NCBI GenBank assembly: GCA_903864435.1
Contig: CAIPFY010000035.1
Coordinates: forward strand, 1 to 42,845
Origin: an uncultured Chloroflexota bacterium
GTDB lineage: Bacteria; Chloroflexota; Anaerolineae; Aggregatilineales; Phototrophicaceae
Direction of reading: 5' to 3'
Length of the DNA stretch: 42,845 nt
Position 1 is the first letter of the stretch; every line of letters begins with the position of its first letter. The translations under genes were made by a program, and so were the position numbers. A model generated the notes under the pieces. That model did no database searches, was not told where the DNA came from, and saw only the letters and a list, made by a program, of their open reading frames with translations. This document shows positions 12,660 through 41,789 of this stretch, in pieces.

Positions 12660-12935
12660 TCCGTTCGCGTTCAGGCTTTACACGGCGGGTTTGCTCTGCT
12701 ATAACTACACCAACCTGCTGTGCCCGTGATGGCGCGCAATGCGTTTGAGCCAACACCCAAAATTCGGGGGTCACACGTCTGGCTGTTTGGTGATAGGCTT
12801 TAGCCAAGACCTCGCTGCCCAGTCCGATCCCCACCTGCGAAAGCAGGTTCAAAAACATGGCGTTACACGACATAGCGGGGTTTTTTAAGAATCAACAGCG
12901 CCGACTTCATAACAAGAAGTCGGCGCTGTTTTTTT
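12660..12935 (+). ncRNA. Candidate structured RNA in a gene-free gap
   Basis: The 381-bp gap between the aquaporin and LCP genes has no convincing plus-strand gene but contains several plus-strand hairpins: AGCC/GGCT enclosing ACCC/GGGT around 12749-12784, and ACCTGC-GAAA-GCAGGT at 12833-12848, whose GNRA tetraloop forms only in the plus-strand RNA. A T6 run follows at 12881 and a strong terminator at 12894-12935. The boundaries are a guess, no promoter is clear, and I could not match it to tmRNA, RNase P, 6S or SRP RNA. A 73-codon minus-strand ORF (12652-12873) is the competing reading. Confidence 0.3.
12894..12935 (+). terminator. Very strong intrinsic terminator with plus-strand polarity
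   Basis: Perfect 15-bp stem (12894-12908 with 12916-12930), 7-nt loop, then seven T ending at 12935. On the minus strand the bases after the stem are TTGATTCTT, a poor tract, so the efficient direction is plus, although no plus-strand gene lies upstream. It may still serve weakly for the minus-strand LCP gene that ends at 12945. Confidence 0.85.
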
Positions 12936-23833: not shown

Positions 23834-23869
23834 GTTGCACAGTCGAATATGCAATAACGTTGATCCGAA

Positions 23870-24121
23870 AAAGTACACACCCCATCGGTGTTCAGAGAGC
23901 CGCCGGTTGCTGTGAAGGCGGTACACGCGAGGATGTGGAATGGGTCGGGGAGTTGCGCGGGCGAACCTCAAACAGTAGCCCACGCCGGAAGCGCACCGTT
24001 ACCACAGCGCAGGGTATCGCTCCGGCTGTACCCGTTCGAGTGAAGCCATGTTCACAACTGGCTTAACCAAGGTGGCACCACGGGAACCCCGTCTCGTCCT
24101 TGAACGATGATGGGGTTTTTT
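23870..24121 (+). promoter_or_regulatory. T-box riboswitch, tryptophan-specific, upstream of trpE
   Basis: The leader has AGAGAGCCGCCGGTTGCTGTGAAGG-type stem I features beginning near 23894, a specifier loop in which GAA (23938-23940) is followed by TGG (23941-23943), the Trp codon, and the invariant T-box sequence AAGGTGGCACCACGG (24069-24083), followed by a terminator. In this class, uncharged tRNA pairs with the specifier and with the T-box bulge and stabilises an antiterminator, so trp genes are transcribed when charged tRNA-Trp is scarce. The T-box motif and terminator are clear; the outer limits and the specifier choice (a second TGG lies at 23936) are my reading. Confidence 0.85.
24085..24121 (+). 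terminator. T-box-controlled terminator before trpE
   Basis: Stem AACCCCGTC (24085-24093) with GATGGGGTT (24109-24117), including one G-T pair, extended by TCGT/ACGA inside, then six T (24116-24121). Its 5' arm adjoins the T-box sequence, as expected for mutually exclusive antiterminator and terminator. Confidence 0.88.
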
Positions 24122-28840: not shown

Positions 28841-29521
28841 ATGTCTCTTGTGGTTCATGTGAAGATTTGCGGCATTCGGACGTTGGAAGATGCGCTGATG
28901 GCAACCGCTGCCGGGGCGGATTTGCTCGGCTTCAATTTCTACCGGAAAAGTCCCCGTGCGCTGCCTGTGGGTGACGCGGCGACCCTCTGTGATGCGCTGC
29001 GGGCGCGGTTGGGCGCGGCCTGCCCGCTGCTAATCGGCCTGTTTGTGAACGAGAATGTAGGCACGATACAGTCTGTTCTAGAGCAGGTGGGGCTGGACGG
29101 GGCGCAACTGCACGGTGACGAATCCGACGAGGTGCTGCGTGAACTGCGCGGCGCGGGCTACAAGGCGATTCGCCCGCAATCGCTGGCGCAGGCGTTGGAT
29201 GATGTGATGTATTTTCAACCGTATTTCCCCGCCAACGAACGCTTCCCGTCGCTGCTGCTGGATGCCTACAACCCGCAGTTGTACGGGGGGACGGGCGAAC
29301 AGGCCAGCCTCGATATTGCGCGGACAGTGAAGGATGATGTGCCGCGTTTGATGCTGGCTGGCGGATTGACCCCGCAGAATGTGGCGAAGCACATTAAAGC
29401 CGCACGCCCGTGGGGGGTGGATGTTGCCAGCGGTGTCGAAATGGATGGGCAACCGGGACGCAAGGACGCGGAGAAGGTGAAGTCGTTCATCCGCGCCGCC
29501 AAAGGCGTGATCTTGCTATGA
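28841..29521 (+). CDS. trpF: Phosphoribosylanthranilate isomerase
   Basis: Amadori rearrangement of phosphoribosylanthranilate to CdRP. 226 aa TIM barrel: VKICGIRTLEDA (catalytic Cys), GFNFYRKSPRAL, LIGLFVNE, QLHGDESDEVL, LLLDAYNPQLYGGTG (catalytic Asp), LAGGLTPQNV and GVDVASGVEMDGQPGRKD. The stop overlaps the start of the NUDIX gene by four bases (ATGA). Confidence 0.95.
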   Translation: MSLVVHVKICGIRTLEDALMATAAGADLLGFNFYRKSPRALPVGDAATLCDALRARLGAACPLLIGLFVNENVGTIQSVLEQVGLDGAQLHGDESDEVLRELRGAGYKAIRPQSLAQALDDVMYFQPYFPANERFPSLLLDAYNPQLYGGTGEQASLDIARTVKDDVPRLMLAGGLTPQNVAKHIKAARPWGVDVASGVEMDGQPGRKDAEKVKSFIRAAKGVILL

Positions 29522-30144
29522 CCGAAATGCTGGATATTTACGACGACAATCTGGTTCACGTCGGTGTGAAAGAACGCGAGGCCGTTCACCGCGATGGGGA
29601 CTGGCATCGGGTATTCCACTGTTGGGTGATTGGGCGGGATGCACAGGGGCAACCGCGCATCGTAGTGCAGCGCCGCGCCGCCGAAAAAGACACCTTCCCC
29701 AACCGCTTCGATGTGAGTGCGGCAGGTCACTATCATGCGGGGGAATCTATCCGCGACGGGGTGCGCGAGGTGGAAGAAGAACTGGGGATTCCGGTGTCGT
29801 TCGAGCAGCTTATCCCGGTGGGGCTGAAGATTCACACCGCCCGCTATTCCAGCAAGATTGACCGCGAATTTAGCGATGTGTTCTTCTATGTGACGGACTG
29901 CACCCTCAGCCGCTTCGACTATCAACGCGAAGAAGTGGCCGGGCTGGTGGCCTTCGCCATTGATGAGGGGATCGCGCTCATGGCGGGCGAACGCGACAGT
30001 TTGCAGGCTGAGGCGGCGGGCTTGGGGGCGGATGTGGTGACGCTGCGGGCGGGGGATTTCGTGCCGCGTCCCGACCAGTACGTGCTGAAAGTGCTGCTGA
30101 CGGCCAAACATTGTTTGAACGGTGAGAAGTATCTGGTGGTGTGA
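29518..30144 (+). CDS. NUDIX hydrolase, passenger in the trp operon
   Basis: 208 aa from ATG 29518, translationally coupled to trpF. The Nudix box lies about residues 68-89 (GHYHAGESIRDGVREVEEELGI); it has six rather than seven residues between the first Glu and the REVEEELGI core, a spacing seen in the isopentenyl-diphosphate-isomerase-like group of NUDIX enzymes. The N-terminal DIYDDNLVHVGVKEREAVHRDGDWHRVFHCWVI also fits that group, which includes hydrolases of unknown substrate often mislabelled Idi. Metal-binding glutamates are intact. No direct role in tryptophan synthesis is known. Confidence 0.82.
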   Translation: MTEMLDIYDDNLVHVGVKEREAVHRDGDWHRVFHCWVIGRDAQGQPRIVVQRRAAEKDTFPNRFDVSAAGHYHAGESIRDGVREVEEELGIPVSFEQLIPVGLKIHTARYSSKIDREFSDVFFYVTDCTLSRFDYQREEVAGLVAFAIDEGIALMAGERDSLQAEAAGLGADVVTLRAGDFVPRPDQYVLKVLLTAKHCLNGEKYLVV

Positions 30145-30153
30145 GGGGCGCGA

Positions 30154-30645
30154 ATGAGCTTCCATATCGAACCGATGATGGCTGAAGATTGGGACGCGGT
30201 GCTGGCGATCTACCTTGAGGGGATCGCCACCCGCAACGCCACTTTTGAAACCAGTGCGCCGGAGTGGGAAAAGTGGGATAGCGGCCACCGCGCCGACTGT
30301 CGTTTGGTATCGCGGCAGGGCGGGAACATGCTCGGATGGGCGGCGCTGTCGCCGGTATCGGGGCGCTGCGTATATGCAGGTGTGGCGGAAGTGAGCATTT
30401 ACATCACGGCGGCGGCACGCGGGCAAGGGGTGGGGCGGGCGCTGCTTACCCAACTGGTGAACGAGTCTGAGGCGGCGGGGTTGTGGACGCTGCAAGCGGG
30501 TATTTTGCGCGAAAATGCCGCCAGTCGCGCCCTACACGCGGCCTGCGGGTTTCGGGAACTGGGCTACCGCGAACGGGTGGGACAGTTGGATGGCGTGTGG
30601 CGGGATGTGATTTTGATGGAACGCCGCAGCGGGAAAATGGGTTGA
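30154..30645 (+). CDS. GNAT N-acetyltransferase, phosphinothricin-acetyltransferase-like
   Basis: 163 aa. The pattern is that of the PAT/YwnH group: an N-terminal MAEDWDAVLAIYLEGIATRNATFET, GWAALSPVSGRCVYAGVAEVSIYI, the acetyl-CoA loop RGQGVGRALL (about 88-97), and GILRENAASRALHAACGFRELG. The group acetylates methionine sulfone or sulfoximine and similar amino-acid analogues; the native substrate is not known here. It follows the NUDIX gene by nine bases with GAGGGG before its ATG and precedes trpB, so it is co-transcribed. Confidence 0.82.
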   Translation: MSFHIEPMMAEDWDAVLAIYLEGIATRNATFETSAPEWEKWDSGHRADCRLVSRQGGNMLGWAALSPVSGRCVYAGVAEVSIYITAAARGQGVGRALLTQLVNESEAAGLWTLQAGILRENAASRALHAACGFRELGYRERVGQLDGVWRDVILMERRSGKMG

Positions 30646-30675
30646 AAACAGAACTAGGTGGGGCAGGGGATGACG

Positions 30676-31896
30676 ATGTATATCGAAGTTGGAAAGACGA
30701 ATGTGCCGGATGAGCGCGGGTATTTCGGTGAATTTGGCGGGCGCTATGTGCCGGAAACGCTCATGCCGGCGCTGGACGAACTGGCCGCCGCCTATGCCGA
30801 GGCGATGGCGGATGCCGATTTTCAGGGGCGGCTGGCGCATTTGCAGCGCACCTTCACCGGACGGCCAACGCCGGTTACGTATGCGGCGCGGTTGAGCGAG
30901 CAGTTGGGCGGGGCGCGTATTTTCCTCAAGCGCGAGGATTTGGCGCACACGGGCGCACACAAGATCAACAACGCGCTGGGGCAGGCGCTTCTGGCGCAGC
31001 GCATGGGCAAACGGCGCATTGTGGCGGAAACGGGCGCGGGGCAGCATGGCGTGGGCAGCGCCACCGCCTGCGCCATGCTCGGCCTCGAATGCCATGTGTA
31101 TATGGGCAGCGTGGATATGGCGCGGCAACAGCCGAACGTATTCCGCATGAAGCTGATGGGCGCGAACGTGATTCCGGTGGAAAGCGGGACGAAAACGCTC
31201 AAGGATGCGATCAACGAGGCCATCCGCGACTGGGTGACGAATGTTCGCAGCACCTTCTACTTGCTCGGTTCGGCGTTGGGGCCGCACCCGTACCCGATGA
31301 TGGTGCGCGATTTCCAGAGCGTGATCGGCATCGAAGCGCGACAGCAAATGCTGGAACTGGCGGGGCGCTTGCCCGATGTGGCGATTGCCTGTGTGGGCGG
31401 CGGCAGCAACTCCATCGGCCTGTTTCATGGCTTCCGGGATGACGAGTCGGTGGAACTGATCGGCGTGGAGGCGGGCGGTCATGGTGTGCTGAGTGGTGAA
31501 CACGCGGCGCGGTTTGCCGACCCCGCGAAAGGTCGTCCGGGGGTGCTGCACGGGACGCGCTCGTTTGTGCTTCAGGACGCGGACGGGCAGATTATGAACA
31601 CGCACAGCGTTTCGGCGGGGCTGGATTACGCCTCTATCGGGCCGGAACACGCTTATTTGCGCCAGACCGAACGCGCATTCTACACACTGGCGACGGATGA
31701 GGAGGCACTGGAAGCTGTTAAAACGCTGTCGCAGACCGAAGGCATCATCCCCGCGTTGGAGAGCGCCCACGCCGTCGTGGAGGCCGTCAAACGTGCGCCC
31801 ACCATGCCGAAGGACTCGATCATTCTGGTCAACCTGTCGGGGCGAGGCGATAAGGATTTGGACACGATCATGCGCGAGTTGAAGCTGAATGAGTGA
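30676..31896 (+). CDS. trpB: Tryptophan synthase beta chain
   Basis: PLP enzyme that condenses indole with serine. 406 aa. [17 protein letters not shown] (17-33), PLP-binding Lys96 in [21 protein letters not shown], the phosphate loop VGGGSNSIG, and the C-terminal [14 protein letters not shown]. It is TrpB1-type, the alpha-associating form. AGGGG (30665-30669) supports ATG 30676 over ATG 30670. The end overlaps the next gene by eight bases. Confidence 0.97.
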
Positions 31897-32365
31897 CCGC
31901 CGTCCGCGCACCGTCAGCGCCTTCCTGCACAACGGGCGCGGCGAGGTGCTGGTGCAACTGCGCGATTCGAAGCCGGGATTGCGCTTCCCGCGTTGCTGGT
32001 CAACGCTCGGCGGCGCGATGGAAGCGGGGGAGTCGCCGGAACAGGCCATGCAGCGCGAGTTGATCGAGGAGATCGAGATTTGCCCGCCGCTGACGTTCTG
32101 GCGGACGTTCGACCATCGCTATGCTTATCGCGGGCAAGAGGTTGAGGTGCAGGTTCACGCCTTCACGGGGCTGCTGGATATGCCAGCGGAGGCGGTGCGT
32201 TTGCACGAAGGGGAACGGGTGGCGTGGTTGAACGCCGCTGACATTGAGCGACTGCCGTTCGCGTTCGGTCTGGACGCGCTGTTCAGGGAGTTTTTCGCAA
32301 CCTATGACCACCGAAATCACACTGGCGACCACCTTTCATCCCAGAGGCGAAACGGCACGTCTTGA
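31889..32365 (+). CDS. NUDIX hydrolase, second passenger in the trp operon
   Basis: 158 aa. Compact MutT-like NUDIX fold with the box at about residues 44-66 ([24 protein letters not shown]); the Gly near the end of the canonical box is Glu, but the metal-binding RE..EE core is kept. MutT-type enzymes clean up modified nucleotides or hydrolyse other nucleoside diphosphates. It is unrelated in sequence to the first NUDIX gene of this operon. It overlaps trpB by eight bases and the next gene by 62 bases. Confidence 0.8.
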
Positions 32366-33893: not shown

Positions 33894-33923
33894 TTGACAA
33901 CTTGCGTAAGACTGTGTTAGCCT
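33894..33923 (+). promoter_or_regulatory. Putative promoter of the aro operon
   Basis: Consensus TTGACA (33894-33899) four bases after the trpA stop. An 18-bp spacer leads to TAGCCT (33918-33923), a modest -10. TATAGG at 33935-33940 is an alternative -10 but lacks a good -35. Confidence 0.5.
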
Positions 33924-33961
33924 TTGCGCCATTGTATAGGGAACTGATTTTCAAACTCGTG

Positions 33962-34060
33962 ATGCACACCGCAACCTACCGCCCGTATTATTATTATTAC
34001 TTTAGCAGCCCCATAGAGGCGGATAGAGCGTTGTGTGCCGGGTCTGGACTGACGACGTAG
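33962..34060 (+). CDS. Tyr/Phe-rich leader peptide of the aro operon
   Basis: A 32-codon ORF in the 262-bp trpA-aroH gap. It reads M-H-T-A-T-Y-R-P, then five Tyr codons (33986-34000), a Phe codon (34001-34003), then S-S-P-I and an unremarkable tail to TAG at 34058-34060. A run of Tyr and Phe codons before a terminator and in front of chorismate mutase and DAHP synthase genes is the hallmark of transcription attenuation by ribosome stalling. The weak point is the start: no good ribosome site lies before ATG 33962 (an in-frame GTG is at 33959 and a TTG at 33932), and the Tyr run is also a TAT trinucleotide repeat. No homologue is known to me. Confidence 0.65.
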   Translation: MHTATYRPYYYYYFSSPIEADRALCAGSGLTT

Positions 34061-34084
34061 ACCCTTATCAGTTCGGAAGTACCG

Positions 34085-34117
34085 AAGGCGCAGAGCAAAA
34101 CGCTCCGCGCCTTTTTT
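34085..34117 (+). terminator. Attenuator terminator upstream of aroH
   Basis: Stem AAGGCGC (34085-34091) with GCGCCTT (34107-34113), extended inside by GAGC/GCTC around an AAAAC loop, followed by six T (34112-34117). It is 34 bases before the aroH start and after the leader ORF. Upstream sequences complementary to its arms exist: 34026-34032 GAGCGTT with 34099-34105, 34017-34021 AGGCG with 34108-34112, and TGTGCC 34034-34039 with 34087-34092. Confidence 0.85.
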
Positions 34118-34151
34118 GTTGTCTTTTTCAGCCACTCTAGGGAGCGAGACT

Positions 34152-34553
34152 ATGCTGTGTTTGGGCGTGCGTGGTGCGACGACAGTAAACGAGAATACGG
34201 CTGCGGCCATCCTGAGCGCGACTCGTGAATTGTTGCAGAAAGTGATCGAGGTCAACGGGATTGAGGAGGATTATGTCGCCAGCGTCATCTTCACCACCAC
34301 GCCGGATTTGAACGCGGCGTTTCCAGCGAAGGCTGCGCGTGATCTGGGGTGGCACCGGGCGGCGCTGATGGGGGCGCAGGAGGTGGATGTGCCGAATGGT
34401 ATTCCGATGTGCATCCGCATCCTGATTCACTGGAATACCGAGAGGCCGATGGATGCCATTCAGCATGTGTATATGCACGGGGCGATGGCGCTGCGGCCTG
34501 ATTTATACCCGGATAACAAAATCGTTTTAAGTGATGAGGATAAGGGGAGCTAA
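34152..34553 (+). CDS. aroH: Chorismate mutase, AroH type
   Basis: Rearranges chorismate to prephenate, the entry to Tyr and Phe. 133 aa, the trimeric AroH fold of Bacillus subtilis rather than the helical AroQ-type mutase. Active-site residues match: Arg7 (GVRGAT), Arg63, Glu77, Cys87, Arg89 (MCIRILIHW) and the Tyr in HVYMHGA. AGGGAG at 34139-34144 supports ATG 34152. It heads the aro block directly behind the attenuator. Confidence 0.93.
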
Positions 34554-34555
34554 AC

Positions 34556-35572
34556 ATGATCGTCATTATGAAGCCCGGTGCGGGTGTACAGCAGATTACC
34601 GATGTGATGAACCGTGTGCGCGGGGATGGCTACGCGCCGCACCTGACCGAAGGTGAGCAGCAGACCATCATCGGCGTGGTGGGCGAAAGCCCCACGCCGC
34701 TGCGTGAGGACAACTATAGCTCGATGGATGGCGTGGAACGGGTGGTGCGCGTTTCGGTGCCGTACAAACTCGCCAGTCGCCATTTCAATCCGGCGGATAC
34801 GCTGGTTCCGCTGAACGGTAGTCAGATGGGCGGGAACAAGGTGCTGATTATCGCGGGGCCGTGTTCGGTGGAAAGCCGCGAACAGATCATCGAAGTGGCG
34901 GAACAGGTGAAAGAAGCGGGTGCAACGGCACTGCGTGGCGGCGCGTTCAAACCGCGCACTTCGCCCTACAGCTTTCAGGGTTTCGGTGAGAAGGGGTTGC
35001 AATGGCTGGCGGAAGCGCGGGAACGCACCGGCCTGCCCATCGTGACCGAGGTGATGGACACCGCGCAGGTTCCGCTGGTGTGCCAGTATGCGGATGTGCT
35101 GCAAATCGGCGCACGTAACATGCAGAACTTTAGCCTGTTGAACGCCGTCGGGCAGACGCAACACACCATCCTGCTCAAGCGCGGGATGAGCAGCACGGTT
35201 GAGGATTTGCTGATGTCGGCGGAATATGTGCTGTCGAACGGCAACAAGCGTGTGATGTTGTGCGAGCGCGGCATCCGCACGTTTGAACGGGCGACGCGCA
35301 ATACCTTCGATGTGAACGCGATTCCGGTGCTGAAGGCGCTCACGCATCTGCCGGTGCTGGCTGACCCCAGCCATGCGGTTGGGCTGTGGGAATATGTCGA
35401 GTCGATTGCGCGGGCGGCGGTGGCGGCTGGCGCAGATGGCTTGATCGTGGAAGTGCATTCCAAGCCGGAAGAAGCCGTGTCGGATGGTCGCCAGAGCTTG
35501 AAACCGGATCGGTTCAAGGCGATGGTGGATCAGGTGAAGCGCGTCGCCAATGCAGTAGGACGGACAGCCTGA
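34556..35572 (+). CDS. aroF: 3-deoxy-7-phosphoheptulonate (DAHP) synthase with N-terminal regulatory domain
   Basis: First step of the shikimate pathway (PEP + erythrose-4-phosphate). 338 aa. Residues 1-70 form the ferredoxin-like domain typical of the Thermotoga-type (I-beta) enzymes, through which tyrosine or phenylalanine inhibits the enzyme. The barrel follows: [10 protein letters not shown] (metal Cys), [60 protein letters not shown] and [10 protein letters not shown]. Separate from chorismate mutase here, while some bacteria have them fused. The stop overlaps tyrA by one base. Confidence 0.95.
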
Positions 35573-36474
35573 TGACAGGCGGCACGGGCTTTCAGAGCCG
35601 CCATCTGGCGGTGGTCGGGCTGGGGCTGATGGGGGGGTCGCTGGCGCGTGCGCTGCGATCCCACGCGGCGGTGATTACGGGCGTGGAAGCCAACCCGGAG
35701 TCCCGCGAATATGCGCTGGCGCAGGGCATCGTTGACCATGCCACCGACGATCTGCGGGCGGGTGTGAGCGAGGCCGACACGGTGATTCTGTGTGCGCCGG
35801 TTCGTATCATCCAGACGATGCTGGAAAAGCGCATCGGCTCGTATCTGCGCTCGAATACGCTGCTTATTGACATTGGCAGCACGAAACGCGATATTTGCGA
35901 GGCAATGGGCAAATTGCCGGTGGGTATTCATGCCATCGGCGGCCACCCGATGACGGGCAAAGAGGTCAGCGGCGTGGCGGCCAGCGATGGTGCGTTGTAC
36001 CGGGGGCGGCCTTTCGTGCTGTGTCCCACGCGGCGCACGCTGCCGGCCACACGCCTGCGGGCGCTGTCGCTGGTGGCGGCGCTGGAAGCCGTGCCGTTCG
36101 AGATGGAGGCGCAGCGCCACGATCATTTAGTGGCGGCCATCAGCCATCTGCCGTACATTCTCAGCGCGGCGCTGGTGGCAACGGTGGATAAGCAGGGTAA
36201 ATCCGATCCGCAGGTGTGGGAATTGGCGGCGGGCGGCTTCCGCGATATGTCGCGCTTGGCGGGACAGGACGTGCAGATGATGAGCGACATCATGAGCACG
36301 AATACGCAGGCGGTGGCGACGTTGTTGGCGTTGTTCCGCGTGCAACTGGCGATGCTGGAGGCGATGCTGGTGTCGCGGGACGATCAACAACTGGCGGACT
36401 TCTTGCGTCCTGCTCGTGAAGCGCGGTTGGAATGGATCCAAAAATACGAGAATGGAGCCAAGAATGGCAAATGA
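35572..36474 (+). CDS. tyrA: Prephenate dehydrogenase
   Basis: Oxidises prephenate to 4-hydroxyphenylpyruvate for tyrosine. 300 aa. NAD-binding VVGLGLMGGSLARAL at the N-terminus, then AIGGHPMTGKEVSGVAASDGALYRG and HDHLVAAISHLPYILSAAL with the catalytic His, the prephenate-binding region of TyrA. No ACT domain follows, so feedback by tyrosine is not built in through that route. TGATG overlap with aroF suggests coupling. Could also accept arogenate; not decidable by reading. Confidence 0.92.
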   Translation: MTGGTGFQSRHLAVVGLGLMGGSLARALRSHAAVITGVEANPESREYALAQGIVDHATDDLRAGVSEADTVILCAPVRIIQTMLEKRIGSYLRSNTLLIDIGSTKRDICEAMGKLPVGIHAIGGHPMTGKEVSGVAASDGALYRGRPFVLCPTRRTLPATRLRALSLVAALEAVPFEMEAQRHDHLVAAISHLPYILSAALVATVDKQGKSDPQVWELAAGGFRDMSRLAGQDVQMMSDIMSTNTQAVATLLALFRVQLAMLEAMLVSRDDQQLADFLRPAREARLEWIQKYENGAKNGK

Positions 36475-37768
36475 TTGTTTTGTGGTTCGTCCCGGCAGCG
36501 GTTTGCGCGGCGGCAGCACCGTTCCGGGCGATAAGTCTATCTCGCACCGGGCGGTGATGTTCGGGGCGATGGCCGTCGGCACGACGCATGTGCGGGCATG
36601 GCTGGCGGCGGGCGATACCGAGGCTTCACTGGCGAGCATTCAGGCGCTGGGGATTCGGGTGGAGCGTTTGAGCCGGAATGAACTGGTGATTCATGGAGGC
36701 GCGTTTGAGCCGCCCAAGAGCTATCTGAATCTGGTGAATGCCGGCACGGGCATTCGCCTGCTGGCGGGGATTATGTGCGGGCAGCCGTTCCCTAGCGTGC
36801 TGGATGGCAGCGAACAACTGCGCCGCCGCCCGATGAAGCGCATCCTCACCCCGTTGCAGATGATGGGGGCGGCTATCAGCGGCACGAATGACCGCGCCCC
36901 GCTGACGATTCAGCCCGCGCAGATGCAGGGTATCCAGTACGATATGCCCGTCGCCAGCGCACAGGTCAAGAGCGCGGTTCTGCTGGCGGGGCTGTTCGCC
37001 AAAGGTGCGACGACGGTGGTGCAGCCGGGGCCTGCCCGTGACCACACCGAGCGCATGTTGAGCGCGATGGGCGTGAACATCGTCACCGAGGGCGACCATA
37101 TTGTGCTGACACCGGGCGCAACGCTGAAGCCGATTAACCTGACCGTTCCGGGCGATATTTCGTCCGCTGCGTTCCCGATTGTGGCGGCGCTGCTGGTTCC
37201 GGGTAGCGACATCACCCTGACGGGCATCAACCTGAACAGCACGCGCACCGGCCTGATTGATGTGCTGCACGCGATGGGCGCAGACTTGACGGTGACAGAA
37301 ACCGGATTGGAAGGCGGCGAACCCGTCGGCACGATTCGCGCACGCCACAGCGTTCTGAAGGGGACGCAGGTGGGCGGCGCGAAAGTGGTCGAGATGATTG
37401 ACGAGTTCCCGATTTTGATGGTGGCGGCGACGCAGGCCGAGGGCGAAACCGTTGTGCGGGACGCGCAAGAACTGCGTGTGAAAGAAACAGACCGCATCAG
37501 CGTGATGGCGGGCGAACTGCGGAAGTTCGGCGCGGAGATCACCGAAACGCCGGATGGTTTCATCATCAAAGGGCCGCAAAAGCTGACGGCGACGGTGGCG
37601 GAAGGCCATGACGATCATCGTATCTCGATGAGCCTGTCGGTGGCGGCGCTGCTGACCGAAGGGCAAAGCACGGTGATTGATGCCCGTTGCGCGGGCGACT
37701 CATTCCCCGGCTTCGCGGGCACAATGGCGGCGCTGGGCATGGATATTCAACAGCGCGATCTTGAGTAG
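36464..37768 (+). CDS. aroA: 5-enolpyruvylshikimate-3-phosphate synthase
   Basis: Sixth shikimate step. 434 aa. PGDKSISHRAVMFGA near the N-terminus (PEP and S3P sites), NAGTGIRLLAG, the RRRPMKRILTPLQMMGA segment, SAQVKSAVLLAGL, DISSAAFPIVAALL, EMIDEFPILMVAATQAEG, LRVKETDRISVMA, and GHDDHRISMSLSVAALL with the catalytic residues. GGAG six bases before ATG 36464; overlaps tyrA by 11 bases. Confidence 0.96.
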   Translation: MANDCFVVRPGSGLRGGSTVPGDKSISHRAVMFGAMAVGTTHVRAWLAAGDTEASLASIQALGIRVERLSRNELVIHGGAFEPPKSYLNLVNAGTGIRLLAGIMCGQPFPSVLDGSEQLRRRPMKRILTPLQMMGAAISGTNDRAPLTIQPAQMQGIQYDMPVASAQVKSAVLLAGLFAKGATTVVQPGPARDHTERMLSAMGVNIVTEGDHIVLTPGATLKPINLTVPGDISSAAFPIVAALLVPGSDITLTGINLNSTRTGLIDVLHAMGADLTVTETGLEGGEPVGTIRARHSVLKGTQVGGAKVVEMIDEFPILMVAATQAEGETVVRDAQELRVKETDRISVMAGELRKFGAEITETPDGFIIKGPQKLTATVAEGHDDHRISMSLSVAALLTEGQSTVIDARCAGDSFPGFAGTMAALGMDIQQRDLE

Positions 37769-37786: not shown

Positions 37787-38617
37787 ATGAAAAAAGTGGG
37801 CATCATCGGGTGGCCGGTTACGCACAGCATCAGCCCCGCCATGCACAACGCGGCTTACGCGGCGCTCGGACTGACCGATTGGCAGTACGAACTCGCGCCC
37901 GTCCCGCCGGACATCGTGCGGCAGGGGTTACGAACGCTGCGCGACGAGGGCGGGTTCATTGGTGTGAATGTGACCGTTCCGCTGAAAGAGAAGGTGATGC
38001 CCCACGTTCGCCCGGATGAACGCGCCCGTGCGGTGGGCGCAGTCAACACGATTGACTTCCGCGACAATTCGGGCACGAATACCGATGTGATCGGCTTCAT
38101 GGACGATTTGAAGGCGCACGGGGTCGAAGTGCAGGGGCAGCGGGTGATCGTACTGGGGGCGGGTGGCGCGGCGCGGGCGGCGGTCTACGGGCTGGCGCGG
38201 GCGGGCGCACAGGTGACGGTGGTGAACCGCACCCCGCAGAAGGCACAGGTCATGCTGGCGGATATGATGCTCTCGGCGAATATCCGCAGCGCGGACGTGC
38301 TGACGCTTGATGAGGCTGCTGAACAGGGCGCGGTGCTGGTGGTGAATGCTACATCGGTGGGGATGTGGCCCAAGACCGAAGAATCCCCTTGGATTACAGG
38401 GGTGGCATGGCCGGCGGGCGCGGTGGCCTACGATATGGTCTACCGTCCCCACCAGACGACTTTCATGCGGCAGGCCGAACAATCCGGTGCGCGGGTGATT
38501 GGCGGGTTGGGGATGCTGGTGCGGCAGGGCGCGGCGGCCTTCAAATTGTGGACAGGACAGGATGCGCCGGTGGAGGTGATGTATGCTGCCGCCGAGTCCG
38601 CTTTGCAGACGACGTGA
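37787..38617 (+). CDS. aroE: Shikimate 5-dehydrogenase
   Basis: Fourth shikimate step, NADPH-linked. 276 aa. IIGWPVTHSISPAMHNAAY, NVTVPLKEKV (catalytic Lys), GAVNTIDF, NTDVIGFMDDL (catalytic Asp), the Rossmann GAGGAARAAVYGL, VNRTPQKA for the NADP phosphate and GLGMLVRQGAAAFKLWTG are all present. GAAGGGA lies upstream of ATG. Confidence 0.96.
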   Translation: MKKVGIIGWPVTHSISPAMHNAAYAALGLTDWQYELAPVPPDIVRQGLRTLRDEGGFIGVNVTVPLKEKVMPHVRPDERARAVGAVNTIDFRDNSGTNTDVIGFMDDLKAHGVEVQGQRVIVLGAGGAARAAVYGLARAGAQVTVVNRTPQKAQVMLADMMLSANIRSADVLTLDEAAEQGAVLVVNATSVGMWPKTEESPWITGVAWPAGAVAYDMVYRPHQTTFMRQAEQSGARVIGGLGMLVRQGAAAFKLWTGQDAPVEVMYAAAESALQTT

Positions 38618-38643: not shown

Positions 38644-39822
38644 ATGATTCGTTTTCTGACAGCCGGAGAATCGCATGGGCCGCTGCTCACGGCCATTCTG
38701 GAAGGGATGCCAGCGGGTGTTCCGCTGACCGCTGACGACATCAACCGCGAACTGGCGCGCCGCCAGCAGGGGTACGGGTCGGGCGGGCGCATGAACATCG
38801 AGCGTGACGAAGTACGGATTACGGCGGGGGTCGTCAAAGGGCACACCACCGGCGCACCGATTTCGCTGCTGGTGGAAAACCGCGATTATAAGAACTGGCG
38901 CGAGAAAGATATTGCGCCCATGTCTACCCCGCGCCCCGGCCATGCGGATTTGACGGGCGCGGTCAAGTACGGCTACGGCGATTTGCGGATTGCGCTGGAA
39001 CGCGCCAGTGCCCGCGAGACGACGATGCGGGTGGCGGCGGGTGCGGTGTGCAAGCGGTTGCTGGCGGCGTTCAATATCCGCGTGGGCGGGTATGTGGTGC
39101 AGATTGGGGATGTGCGGGCGGTTGTGCCGGATGATTTGTCGTATGAGACGCGCTTCCAGACCGCCGAGGAGAACGATGTTCGCGCTCCTGTAGCGGACTG
39201 TGTGGAGGCCATGCACGAAGCCATTCACCAGACCAAAGTGGATAAGGACACGCTGGGCGGGGTGATGGAGATCGTGGCGGTGGGCGCACCCCCCGGCTTG
39301 GGGTCGCATGTCCACTGGGATCGCCGCTTGGATGCGCGGATTGTGGGCGCGATGGTCAGCATTCAGGCTATGAAGGGCGCGGAGATTGGCTCGGCCTTTG
39401 ACAATGCAGCACGCCCCGGTTCGCAGGTACACGACGAAATTCTGCTGGGCGAGGATGGGGCGCTGGTGCGCCACACCAACCGCGCTGGCGGCCTCGAAGG
39501 GGGCATCACGACAGGCGATCCGATTGTGGCGCGGGTGGCGATGAAGCCGATTGCCACGATTTTGAAGGCACTGGGGTCGGTCAATCTGGCGACGGGGCAG
39601 GTCGAGACGACCACGTATGAACGCAGCGATTTTTGTGCGCTACCACGCGCCATCCCCATCGGGGAAGCGATGATGGCGCTGGTGCTGGCGGATGCGCTGG
39701 TCGAAAAGCTAGGCGGCGACAGCCTGAGCGAATTGCAACCGCGTTTCGAGACGTTGCGCCGCGCCCGTTTGCAGGATTTGCCGATGGACAATGTGGAATG
39801 GCGGTTCGGTTATGAAGCCTGA
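38644..39822 (+). CDS. aroC: Chorismate synthase
   Basis: Last common step, FMN-dependent. 392 aa. GESHGPLLTAILEGMPAG, RRQQGYGSGGRMNIERDEV, GKTTG-type GHTTGAPISLLVEN, RPGHADLTGAVKYG, RASARETTMRVAAGAV and GSAFDNAARPGSQVHDE, then NRAGGLEGGITTGDPIV. Overlaps aroK by 11 bases. Confidence 0.97.
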   Translation: MIRFLTAGESHGPLLTAILEGMPAGVPLTADDINRELARRQQGYGSGGRMNIERDEVRITAGVVKGHTTGAPISLLVENRDYKNWREKDIAPMSTPRPGHADLTGAVKYGYGDLRIALERASARETTMRVAAGAVCKRLLAAFNIRVGGYVVQIGDVRAVVPDDLSYETRFQTAEENDVRAPVADCVEAMHEAIHQTKVDKDTLGGVMEIVAVGAPPGLGSHVHWDRRLDARIVGAMVSIQAMKGAEIGSAFDNAARPGSQVHDEILLGEDGALVRHTNRAGGLEGGITTGDPIVARVAMKPIATILKALGSVNLATGQVETTTYERSDFCALPRAIPIGEAMMALVLADALVEKLGGDSLSELQPRFETLRRARLQDLPMDNVEWRFGYEA

Positions 39823-40324
39823 GTCCAATATCGTCATCACGGGGTTTATGGGTACAGGGAAGTCTACTGCCGGGCAACTGGTGGCGGCGCAGTTGAACCG
39901 CCCGTTTCTGGATACCGATGCTGAGATTGAGAAGCGCGTGGGCAAGACTATCCCGCAGATTTTCGCGGACGAGGGCGAGGCGGCTTTCCGGCATATCGAA
40001 CGGCGCATGTGCCGCTTCCTAGCCGCGCAGGAGGGGTACGTGATCTCGACGGGCGGCGGGATGCTGGTGGACGAGGGCAACCGCGAGGTGATGCTGTCGT
40101 CCGGGCTGGTGGTGTGCCTGTCCGCCACGCCAGAGATATTGTTGCAGCGGTTGCAGGCCGACAAAGCCGAACGTCCGCTGCTGCGCGGCGATTGGCGCGG
40201 GTTGCTGGAAAAGCGCCGTCCGGCCTATGAAGCAATCCCCTGTCAGATTGATACAACGGGTAAGACGGCAGAAGCCGTTGCGACGGAGATTATCGCCCTA
40301 TGGAACAACAGCCTATCCGCGTGA
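39812..40324 (+). CDS. aroK: Shikimate kinase
   Basis: Fifth shikimate step. 170 aa. P-loop GFMGTGKSTAG (10-20), DTDAEIEKRVG with the shikimate-binding Asp, FADEGEAAFRHIERR, STGGGMLV and the lid RPLLRGD. ATG 39812 falls within the end of aroC; the longer frame from 39791 would lengthen the overlap without a better ribosome site. Confidence 0.94.
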   Translation: MKPESNIVITGFMGTGKSTAGQLVAAQLNRPFLDTDAEIEKRVGKTIPQIFADEGEAAFRHIERRMCRFLAAQEGYVISTGGGMLVDEGNREVMLSSGLVVCLSATPEILLQRLQADKAERPLLRGDWRGLLEKRRPAYEAIPCQIDTTGKTAEAVATEIIALWNNSLSA

Positions 40325-41337
40325 CCGCCCCCGGTGGCGATTACGACATCCATATTCAGCGCGGCTTATTGCGGCAGGTGGCGGCGCTGCTGCCCAAAGG
40401 CCGCCCGATCATTATCACCAATACCACTTTAGCGCCCCTGTACGGACAGGCGCTGGCGGAGGCGCTCTCCGGCGCTGCGCTGCTACAGATGCCGGATGGC
40501 GAACGCTACAAGACGCTGGATACCGTCGCGCAGTTGTACCGCGATCTGGTGGCTGCTCGCGCTGACCGCGACAGCGTGATTATCGCGCTAGGTGGCGGCG
40601 TGGTGGGCGATACGGTGGGTTTCGTGGCGGCGACCTATATGCGCGGCGTGGCTTTCGTGCAGATTCCGACGACGCTGCTGGCGATGGTGGATTCCAGCGT
40701 GGGCGGCAAGGTGGGCGTGGATTTGCCGGAAGGCAAGAATCTTGTGGGCGCGTTCAAGCAACCGGATTGTGTGCTGATTGACCCCGACGTGCTGGATACG
40801 CTGCCTCCGGCTGAATGGCGCTGCGGCATGGCGGAAACCTACAAGCACTACCTGTTGAGCGCCAGCGAGGGGCTGGCGGCGCTGGACGCACCCGGCGTTG
40901 ACCGCGCCGCCATGATCCGGGCGGCGGTGCAGGTCAAGGTGGATGTGGTGCAGCAAGACCCGTTCGAGAAGAATATTCGCGCCCACCTGAATCTGGGGCA
41001 TACTTTCGCTCATGCGGTGGAACAGGTGTCCGGCTATGCGTGGTTGCATGGCGCGGCGGTGGGGGCGGGGCTGGTGGCGGCGGCGCGGCTTTCGGCGGCG
41101 CTCCAGCACTGCGAGGCGGGGCTGGCGCAGCAAGTGGAGGAAACGGTGGCGCGAATCGGGCTGCCCACACGCTTTGGCGATCTGGACGCGGAACGGCTGT
41201 ATGCGGCGATGGCGACGGATAAGAAGTGGCAGGGCGGGCGTTCGCGGTTCGTGCTGCTGCGCGGCGTGGGGCAGCCGTTCGTGGCACATGATGTTCCCAA
41301 ATCGGCGGTGATGTCCATTCTGGAGGGGATGCGATGA
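40300..41337 (+). CDS. aroB: 3-dehydroquinate synthase
   Basis: Second shikimate step, NAD- and zinc-dependent. 345 aa. [85 protein letters not shown] (zinc-binding His) and [10 protein letters not shown]. Its start lies 25 bases inside aroK, so coupling is likely. Confidence 0.96.
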
Positions 41338-41789
41338 CGAAGAAAATTTTGCTGCTGCACGGCCCGAACCTGAATTTGCTAGGGACACGCGAACCGACGG
41401 TCTACGGGAACGTGACGCTGGAGCAGGTCAACGCATGGGCGGAGGCCCGCGCCCACTGGCACAAGGCTGAACTGCGTGCGGAACAATCCAACCACGAAGG
41501 CGCGTTGATTGATATTCTGCACATCGCCCGCAACTGGGCGGATGGCGTGGTTTTCAATCCGGGGGCGTATACGCATACCTCAATCGCGCTGCGGGATGCG
41601 ATCAGCGGGATTGGCCTGCCCGTCGTGGAAGTGCATCTGTCCAACGTCCATGCCCGCGAGGAATTTCGCCACCGTTCGCTGCTGGCTCCGGTGTGCGTGG
41701 GGCAAATCTGCGGCTTCGGTTGGCGCAGCTATTTGCTAGGCGTGGATGCGTTGCTAGGGCATCTGGGGGTGTTGGCTGCGCCGGAATGA
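41334..41789 (+). CDS. aroQ: 3-dehydroquinate dehydratase, type II
   Basis: Third shikimate step. 151 aa, the small dodecameric type. [19 protein letters not shown] holds the catalytic Tyr and Arg; [29 protein letters not shown] and [18 protein letters not shown] contain the other active-site residues. ATGA overlap with aroB. Last aro gene of the block; no clear terminator follows. Confidence 0.96.

Follow-up and report, generated by a model that had tools for sequence, protein, structure and literature searches.

The gap between trpA and aroH in the genome of an uncultured Chloroflexota bacterium contains a short open reading frame with a run of tyrosine codons, followed by an intrinsic terminator, which raises the question of how the aroH-to-aroQ operon lying immediately downstream is controlled. 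Sequence comparison suggests that ribosome-mediated transcription attenuation by this leader peptide controls the operon, a reading to which we assign a probability of about 0.92. The best reading of the signal is that Tyr and Phe are sensed together, with Trp in addition in some families, and that such sensing occurs in both Anaerolineae and Chloroflexia.

Leader, terminator and operon in the window

The window, by which is meant the whole stretch of 42,845 nucleotides that was analysed, carries the operon on its forward strand, to which all coordinates below refer. The gene upstream of the leader was identified as trpA by NCBIfam. Downstream, aroH (34152-34553) encodes a monofunctional chorismate mutase, the match to TIGR01796 scoring 140.1 bits against a cut-off of 82. 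It is followed by aroG (DAHP synthase, 34556-35572), tyrA (prephenate dehydrogenase, 35572-36474, start approximate), aroA (EPSP synthase, an ORF at 36416-37768, start approximate), aroE (shikimate dehydrogenase, 37787-38617), aroC (chorismate synthase, 38644-39822), aroK (shikimate kinase, 39791-40324), aroB (dehydroquinate synthase, 40300-41337) and aroQ (dehydroquinate dehydratase, 41334-41789). NCBIfam models identified aroG, aroA, aroE, aroC, aroB and aroQ; for tyrA all 15 listed models, and for aroK the models, fell below their own cut-offs. The order aroH-aroG-tyrA-aroA-aroE-aroC-aroK-aroB-aroQ is also the usual one in relatives; for part of the family, no aroG was detected downstream of aroH in many cases. 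Elsewhere in the window, a T-box leader (RF00230, 118.4 bits) lies at 23851-24104, directly before a trpE-like ORF at 24107, and a 6S RNA (RF00013, 57.6 bits) at 12709-12885; NUDIX- and acetyltransferase-like ORFs were recognized by eye between the trp genes (29410-32365).

The initial annotation described a 32-codon leader ORF containing five consecutive Tyr codons, an earlier Tyr and a later Phe, and its coordinates proved exact. The ORF, MHTATYRPYYYYYFSSPIEADRALCAGSGLTT, occupies 33962-34060, is conserved in relatives and reads directly as ATG ... TAT TAT TAT TAT TAC TTT ... TAG. The putative Tyr5-Phe control codons lie at 33986-34003 and are kept as a Tyr/Phe cluster in relatives; together with the Tyr that precedes the run, six of the seven aromatic codons of this leader specify Tyr and one specifies Phe.

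Upstream of the ORF, the TTGACA previously noted as promoter-like was recovered as a -35 element at 33894-33899, to which a probable -10 element, TAGCCT (33918-33923; TATGCT in many relatives), can now be added. The two are separated by a spacer of 18 and give 9 of 12 matches, and a promoter-like score of at least 9 of 12 was found upstream of 64 of 81 leaders, compared with 9 of 405 shuffles. Direct reading also bore out an intrinsic terminator, GAAGGCGCAGAGC/GCTCCGCGCCTTT, at 34084-34117, the end of which is separated from the aroH ATG at 34152 by 34 bases. It consists of a 5' arm (34084-34096), a loop (34097-34101), a 3' arm (34102-34114) and a T6 tract (34112-34117), and its hairpin energy is -19.5 kcal/mol. 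A simple promoter and terminator scanner run on the window listed neither the leader promoter nor the leader terminator, and both elements are regarded as supported because relatives carry them.

Codon clusters in relatives and in other operons

AroH was found in 91 of the 101 genomes searched, which comprised the bacterium's own genome and those of its genus, family and order. Of the 89 upstream regions examined, which left out the matches in G045 and G040, 83 were scored by a script as having a candidate leader ORF and, after it, an intrinsic terminator. The six regions set aside were L011, L015, L046 and L076 (4 of the 89), where no leader precedes aroH, L049, which lies at a contig edge, and L083, where a leader is present and the script found no terminator. 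Two doubtful leaders (L032 and L035) were additionally excluded from tests counting 81 or 41.

Within the 83 regions, a hand-selected set from which regions without a leader had already been removed, 72 leaders contain at least five Tyr, Phe or Trp in eight residues, as opposed to 30 of 1660 dinucleotide shuffles, and the remaining 11 fall short. A joint criterion was also applied without hand selection, namely at least five chosen residues in eight plus a terminator at no more than 60 nt. For aromatic residues it was passed by 71 of 88 aroH regions of the order and for Thr/Met by none of the 88; it is loose for common residues, the same regions passing for Ile/Leu/Val (17/88) and for Gly/Ala (18/88). 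Among 80 named loci kept from Aggregatilineales and other Anaerolineae of the Chloroflexota, which overlap with the 101 genomes, 76 carry a candidate ORF and terminator, and 58 show five aromatics in eight residues with a terminator at no more than 60 nt.

That the run might be a variable TAT microsatellite, a possibility raised by the initial annotation, is contradicted by the codons themselves: at least two different codons occur in the aromatic cluster of all 83 leaders, and both TAT and TAC occur in 69. Such codon mixing argues that the leaders are translated. Points against the attenuation reading are that a Shine-Dalgarno-like 4-mer precedes the leader start, at a distance of 5-16 nt, in just 32 of the 83 and that several leaders need a GTG, TTG or CTG start.

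The composition of the cluster varies with family. Tyr had been proposed as the probable signal, and it does dominate the leader in the window; across the wider family, the signal is better described as Tyr and Phe together, joined in some families by Trp. The f1 leaders contain 3.6 Tyr and 2.3 Phe on average; in the seven f3 leaders Phe exceeds Tyr and is accompanied by an average of 1.9 Trp. The leader accompanies aroH and the aro operon both where trpA lies upstream and where the trp genes run divergently (L092, L100, L123). G074, which yielded no AroH, has a leader ahead of aroG (L193), and in G025 a second Tyr leader stands before another aroG (L190). In the five f3 genomes checked (G062, G069, G075, G090, G094), the aro operon also includes tyrS, between aroE and aroC. 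Seven f3 stretches (L170-L176, of which two are short) yielded no trp genes on the strand of the aro operon. Both this result and the presence of Trp besides Phe and Tyr in the f3 leaders fit a leader that senses every end product fed by the common trunk.

Leaders of this kind extend beyond the order. In a sample of the phylum AroH was present in 158 of 301 genomes, and 47 upstream regions, mostly one per family, were inspected. Five of eight aromatics were reached in 20 of these, 15 of them with a terminator at no more than 60 nt, and the other 27 were below the threshold. One of the 15, L243, passed the script and was judged spurious because it lies far from the gene; the remaining 14 belong to families f9-f12, f15, f16, f19, f30, f40 and f66. 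The other five of the 20 (L208, L213, L217, L220 and L237) have a leader without a detected terminator. Individual examples include MVGSRFYTYFFYFTSRKPDWSLRISWR, from a genome that we take to be Chloroflexus aurantiacus J-10-fl, MRGSRFYTYFFYFTGPQLDWSLRIS, from what is presumably C. aggregans, for which the script found no terminator, and MQSRSAYYFWFWYFASSPRDWLLRVG, from a genome assumed to be that of Roseiflexus sp. RS-1. The last of these, like family f3, has a leader combining Tyr, Phe and Trp.

A covariance model trained on 38 of the aroH leader sequences found matches in 55 of the 61 relatives at E ≤ 0.1. Thirteen weaker matches were fetched; leaders with fitting codons were present in L190-L194, L199 and L200, and none was seen in L195-L198, L201 and L202. 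No plasmid matched when the leader DNA was used as query. Unexpectedly, two of the matches (L191 and L192) were leaders with Thr and Met codons placed before aspartokinase. By the joint criterion, a Thr/Met leader with terminator occurs in 20 of 30 aspartokinase regions (L280-L309), 1 of the 30 passing for aromatics, and the window's own genome has a fitting Thr/Met leader before aspartokinase, MTMGMYTTPGETPRRLCHLS (L310). Sporadic cases were a Thr7 leader before a thrS-like gene (L312, G019) and a CSCCCC leader before a cysteine-synthase-like gene (L311, G026), both genes being named from their translations, and a Tyr3 leader with terminator before tyrS in G068 (L255/L317). As a general second target tyrS was rejected, since L255 was the only one of 30 tyrS regions with a Tyr leader and terminator, and 0 of 30 passed the joint criterion. 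Nor did any of 23 ilvB regions (of 26 loci, those over the family's cut-off) pass for Ile/Leu/Val.

These codon assignments bear on the possibility that a T-box or riboswitch leader RNA controls the terminator and that the short ORF is incidental, which we consider very improbable. A T-box (RF00230) senses tRNA charging and controls a terminator with no need for a ribosome, and the one before trpE indicates that the organism has leader RNAs of the tRNA-sensing kind. However, RF00230 matched the window only at that site and not before aroH, and no Rfam family was found at the aroH leader, where the best hits (E values of 4.4 and 4.9) scored well short of the gathering thresholds. Rfam 15, its amino-acid leaders included, gave no match at the leader in the window or at 22 loci. 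Codon-degenerate conservation, together with the matching codons of the Thr/Met, Thr and Cys leaders, points instead to translation. A similarly low probability is given to attenuation through Rho or translational coupling in place of the intrinsic terminator. Leader loci in which the script found no terminator (the L083, L208, L213, L217, L220 and L237 regions already mentioned, and L315) may use such control, whereas 83 of 89 loci retain a hairpin with a U run beyond the leader stop, the median distance from it being 26 nt (81 leaders).

Predicted pairing of region 2 with the terminator

Two segments of the leader transcript are predicted to take part in competing structures. Region 1 (33964-33983), recognized from the minimum free energy fold and a swap test, forms the 5' strand of a protector hairpin, a pairing absent from those listed by the initial annotation. 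Region 2 (34016-34038), recognized from duplex prediction and swap tests, is the strand common to the protector and the antiterminator. It includes AGGCG (34017-34021) and GAGCGTT (34026-34032), whose complementarity to the terminator was confirmed by a duplex of -20.7 kcal/mol with the terminator loop and 3' arm.

The terminator itself is well supported by covariation. In an alignment of 38 near relatives its arms pair in 95.0% of cells, and seven pairs show two-sided changes, a number reached by 0 of 500 shuffles. In the same alignment, pairing of the antiterminator core is seen in 82.7% of cells, and its covariation did not rise above that of shuffles (218 of 500 as high), which counts against the attenuation reading. 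For this reason partner swapping at the level of the order was used, in which the pairing of region 2 with its own terminator was compared with its pairing with the terminators of other genomes, one sequence being taken per genus (n = 41). The terminator arms served as positive control and gave z = -9.1 for own versus swapped partner.

Region 2 paired with its own loop and 3' arm at -17.4 kcal/mol, compared with -15.2 kcal/mol after swapping (z = -5.6). The value was -6.5 with 14 nt of loop and arm and -7.2 when a trimmed region 2 was paired with the loop and 3' arm, and 0 of 20,000 permutations matched the own-partner pairing. Segments 60 nt upstream (z = +0.65) and 60 nt downstream (z = -1.5) and the segment between region 2 and the terminator (z = +1.0) were null controls. 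The protector hairpin was likewise supported, region 1 preferring its own region 2 with z = -4.23 (n = 41). Comparison of the relatives' gaps revealed both a conserved Tyr/Phe run and own-terminator pairing across the order. The sequences show directly which parts are present, how they are spaced and conserved and how their pairings compete. The alternative hairpins proposed around the leader stop codon did not hold up, since 32 of 81 leaders reached the threshold and 33% of shuffles did so too.

As to the part of the terminator that is captured, the tests favor the 3' arm proposed earlier together with the loop, which carries most of the signal. Region 2 gave z = -8.1 with the loop plus 3 nt and z = -6.3 with the loop plus 9 nt of the 3' arm. 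With the 3' arm minus the loop, the preference in aroH leaders was weak (z = -2.1); the terminator 5' arm also exceeded chance, giving z = -3.0 in the split test and -2.8 to -3.1 over all tests. In 58 of 81 leaders the best duplex includes two or more paired loop bases. The identity of the captured arm is less sure than capture of the loop, because region 2 appears to prefer the 5' arm about as much as the loopless 3' arm. Furthermore, a strand that pairs with the 3' arm meets a kinetic handicap, the nearer 5' arm competing for it, which counts against this arrangement. Loop-first capture of the terminator by region 2 nevertheless seems likely to us.

The aspartokinase leaders behaved comparably in swap tests confined to the 20 regions passing the joint criterion, the ten failing it being left out. 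Region 2 preferred its own terminator (z = -3.7, p = 0.00015) and its own loop plus 3' arm (z = -3.6), and single arms gave nothing (5' arm, z = +0.8; 3' arm, z = +1.2; n = 20 throughout).

Region 2 begins at a median of 17 nt after the aromatic run (interquartile range 15-19), and the leader stop codon lies at a median of 13 nt beyond region 2 (n = 81 for both), a spacing at which region 2 would stay accessible when a ribosome stalls on the run. A point against the scheme is that the duplex of the window stops 21 nt short of the leader stop codon, so that region 2 would be covered only in part by a ribosome standing there.

A further element, CATA (or CATC), follows the aromatic run within 4-22 nt in 49 of 81 leaders, at roughly 5-14 nt. 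In CATA-bearing f1 leaders it occupies one frame in 33 of 35 cases, and its frame differs from that of f1 in 6 of 7 f3 and 3 of 5 f4 leaders. Since the frame varies between families, CATA looks like an RNA or DNA signal rather than a peptide signal; it may pause RNA polymerase and couple the polymerase to the ribosome. That the ORF instead encodes a functional micro-protein ahead of an ordinary, constitutive terminator is the least probable reading of all, for the partly conserved C-terminal stretch of the near family (F-S/T-x-H/D-I ... ALRAG) that would favor it overlaps the DNA of region 2 and CATA, CATA stands in other frames elsewhere, and the sequence of region 2 follows that of the terminator loop through base pairing.

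Proposed mechanism and relation to known attenuators

The layout of ribosome-mediated attenuation proposed by the initial annotation is thus upheld by comparison of relatives with respect to leader, terminator and antiterminator, and a protector has been added to it. Translation of the leader, stalling as the trigger, pairing that starts at the loop and increased readthrough at low Tyr or Phe are what we infer from it. The species sensed would be charged tRNA-Tyr and tRNA-Phe. With Tyr and Phe in ample supply, the ribosome would pass the Tyr5-Phe codons and cover region 2, allowing the terminator arms to pair and transcription to stop near 34117. With Tyr or Phe in short supply, it would stall on the aromatic run and block pairing by region 1, leaving region 2, ∼13-17 nt downstream, free to grip the terminator loop as it emerges and then to zip along the 3' arm. 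The terminator would be kept open in this way, and RNA polymerase would read into aroH. If the leader were not translated, the 1:2 hairpin would form and the terminator would win.

In pheL/pheA, pheST and trpL of Escherichia coli, a control-codon run, a protector, an antiterminator and a terminator precede the first gene, and the same succession of parts is seen here. The codons and genes differ from those of pheL, pheST and trpL, and the Rfam leader models are without a match at this locus. The antiterminator of E. coli trpL holds the terminator 5' arm, whereas the region 2 signal reported here falls on the terminator loop and 3' arm; the aroH leader is therefore predicted to work like trpL and is not filed as trpL-type with regard to the captured arm. 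In reading several end products by one leader, it would resemble the multivalent ilv and thr leaders of E. coli.

The E. coli systems pheL/pheA, pheST and trpL are named as leader-peptide systems in excerpts of PMC11802643, and the same excerpts contain what appears to be the closest described counterpart in function. This is aroR of Corynebacterium glutamicum, a Phe-Tyr-Phe leader before the aroF/DAHP synthase operon that acts by attenuation (PMC11802643, citing Neshat 2014). As far as that account goes, the present leader differs in that Tyr dominates it in the window, AroH comes first, a shikimate operon follows and the phylum is another. According to the same excerpts aroR responds to Phe and not to Tyr (PMC11802643), which cautions against reading Tyr alone as what the present leader senses.

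In the portions of the literature searched, an aromatic leader set of Tyr, Phe and Trp was not met. No Tyr/Phe leader or other amino-acid leader peptide was found for Chloroflexota in the literature searched; a 2010 survey outside that set (Lopatovskaya et al., Mol Biol 44:128) is the likeliest place for such cases. Another 2010 survey, as excerpted, held that leader-peptide systems had to its authors' knowledge been shown only in Proteobacteria and Actinobacteria, and added a Firmicutes case (PMC2965389). Leader-peptide control is hardly known from this branch of bacteria. We tentatively propose, at somewhat less than even odds, that Anaerolineae and Chloroflexia possess a home-grown set of attenuators with a loop-then-3'-arm geometry of its own, serving the aromatic trunk (Tyr plus Phe, or Tyr plus Phe plus Trp), aspartokinase (Thr plus Met) and, sporadically, tyrS, thrS and cysteine synthase, the aromatic type being equipped with CATA some 8-12 nt beyond the run.

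If a diverse set of this kind does exist in Chloroflexota, the mechanism would be older, or would arise more easily, than the survey in PMC2965389 implied, and capture of the loop in two unrelated leaders would represent a distinct way of building an antiterminator. The neighboring trp and aro genes of this bacterium would use two different sensors of tRNA charge, a T-box in the one case and a leader peptide in the other. In organisms known mostly from metagenomes, the leader codons would predict, operon by operon, which amino acid is sensed.
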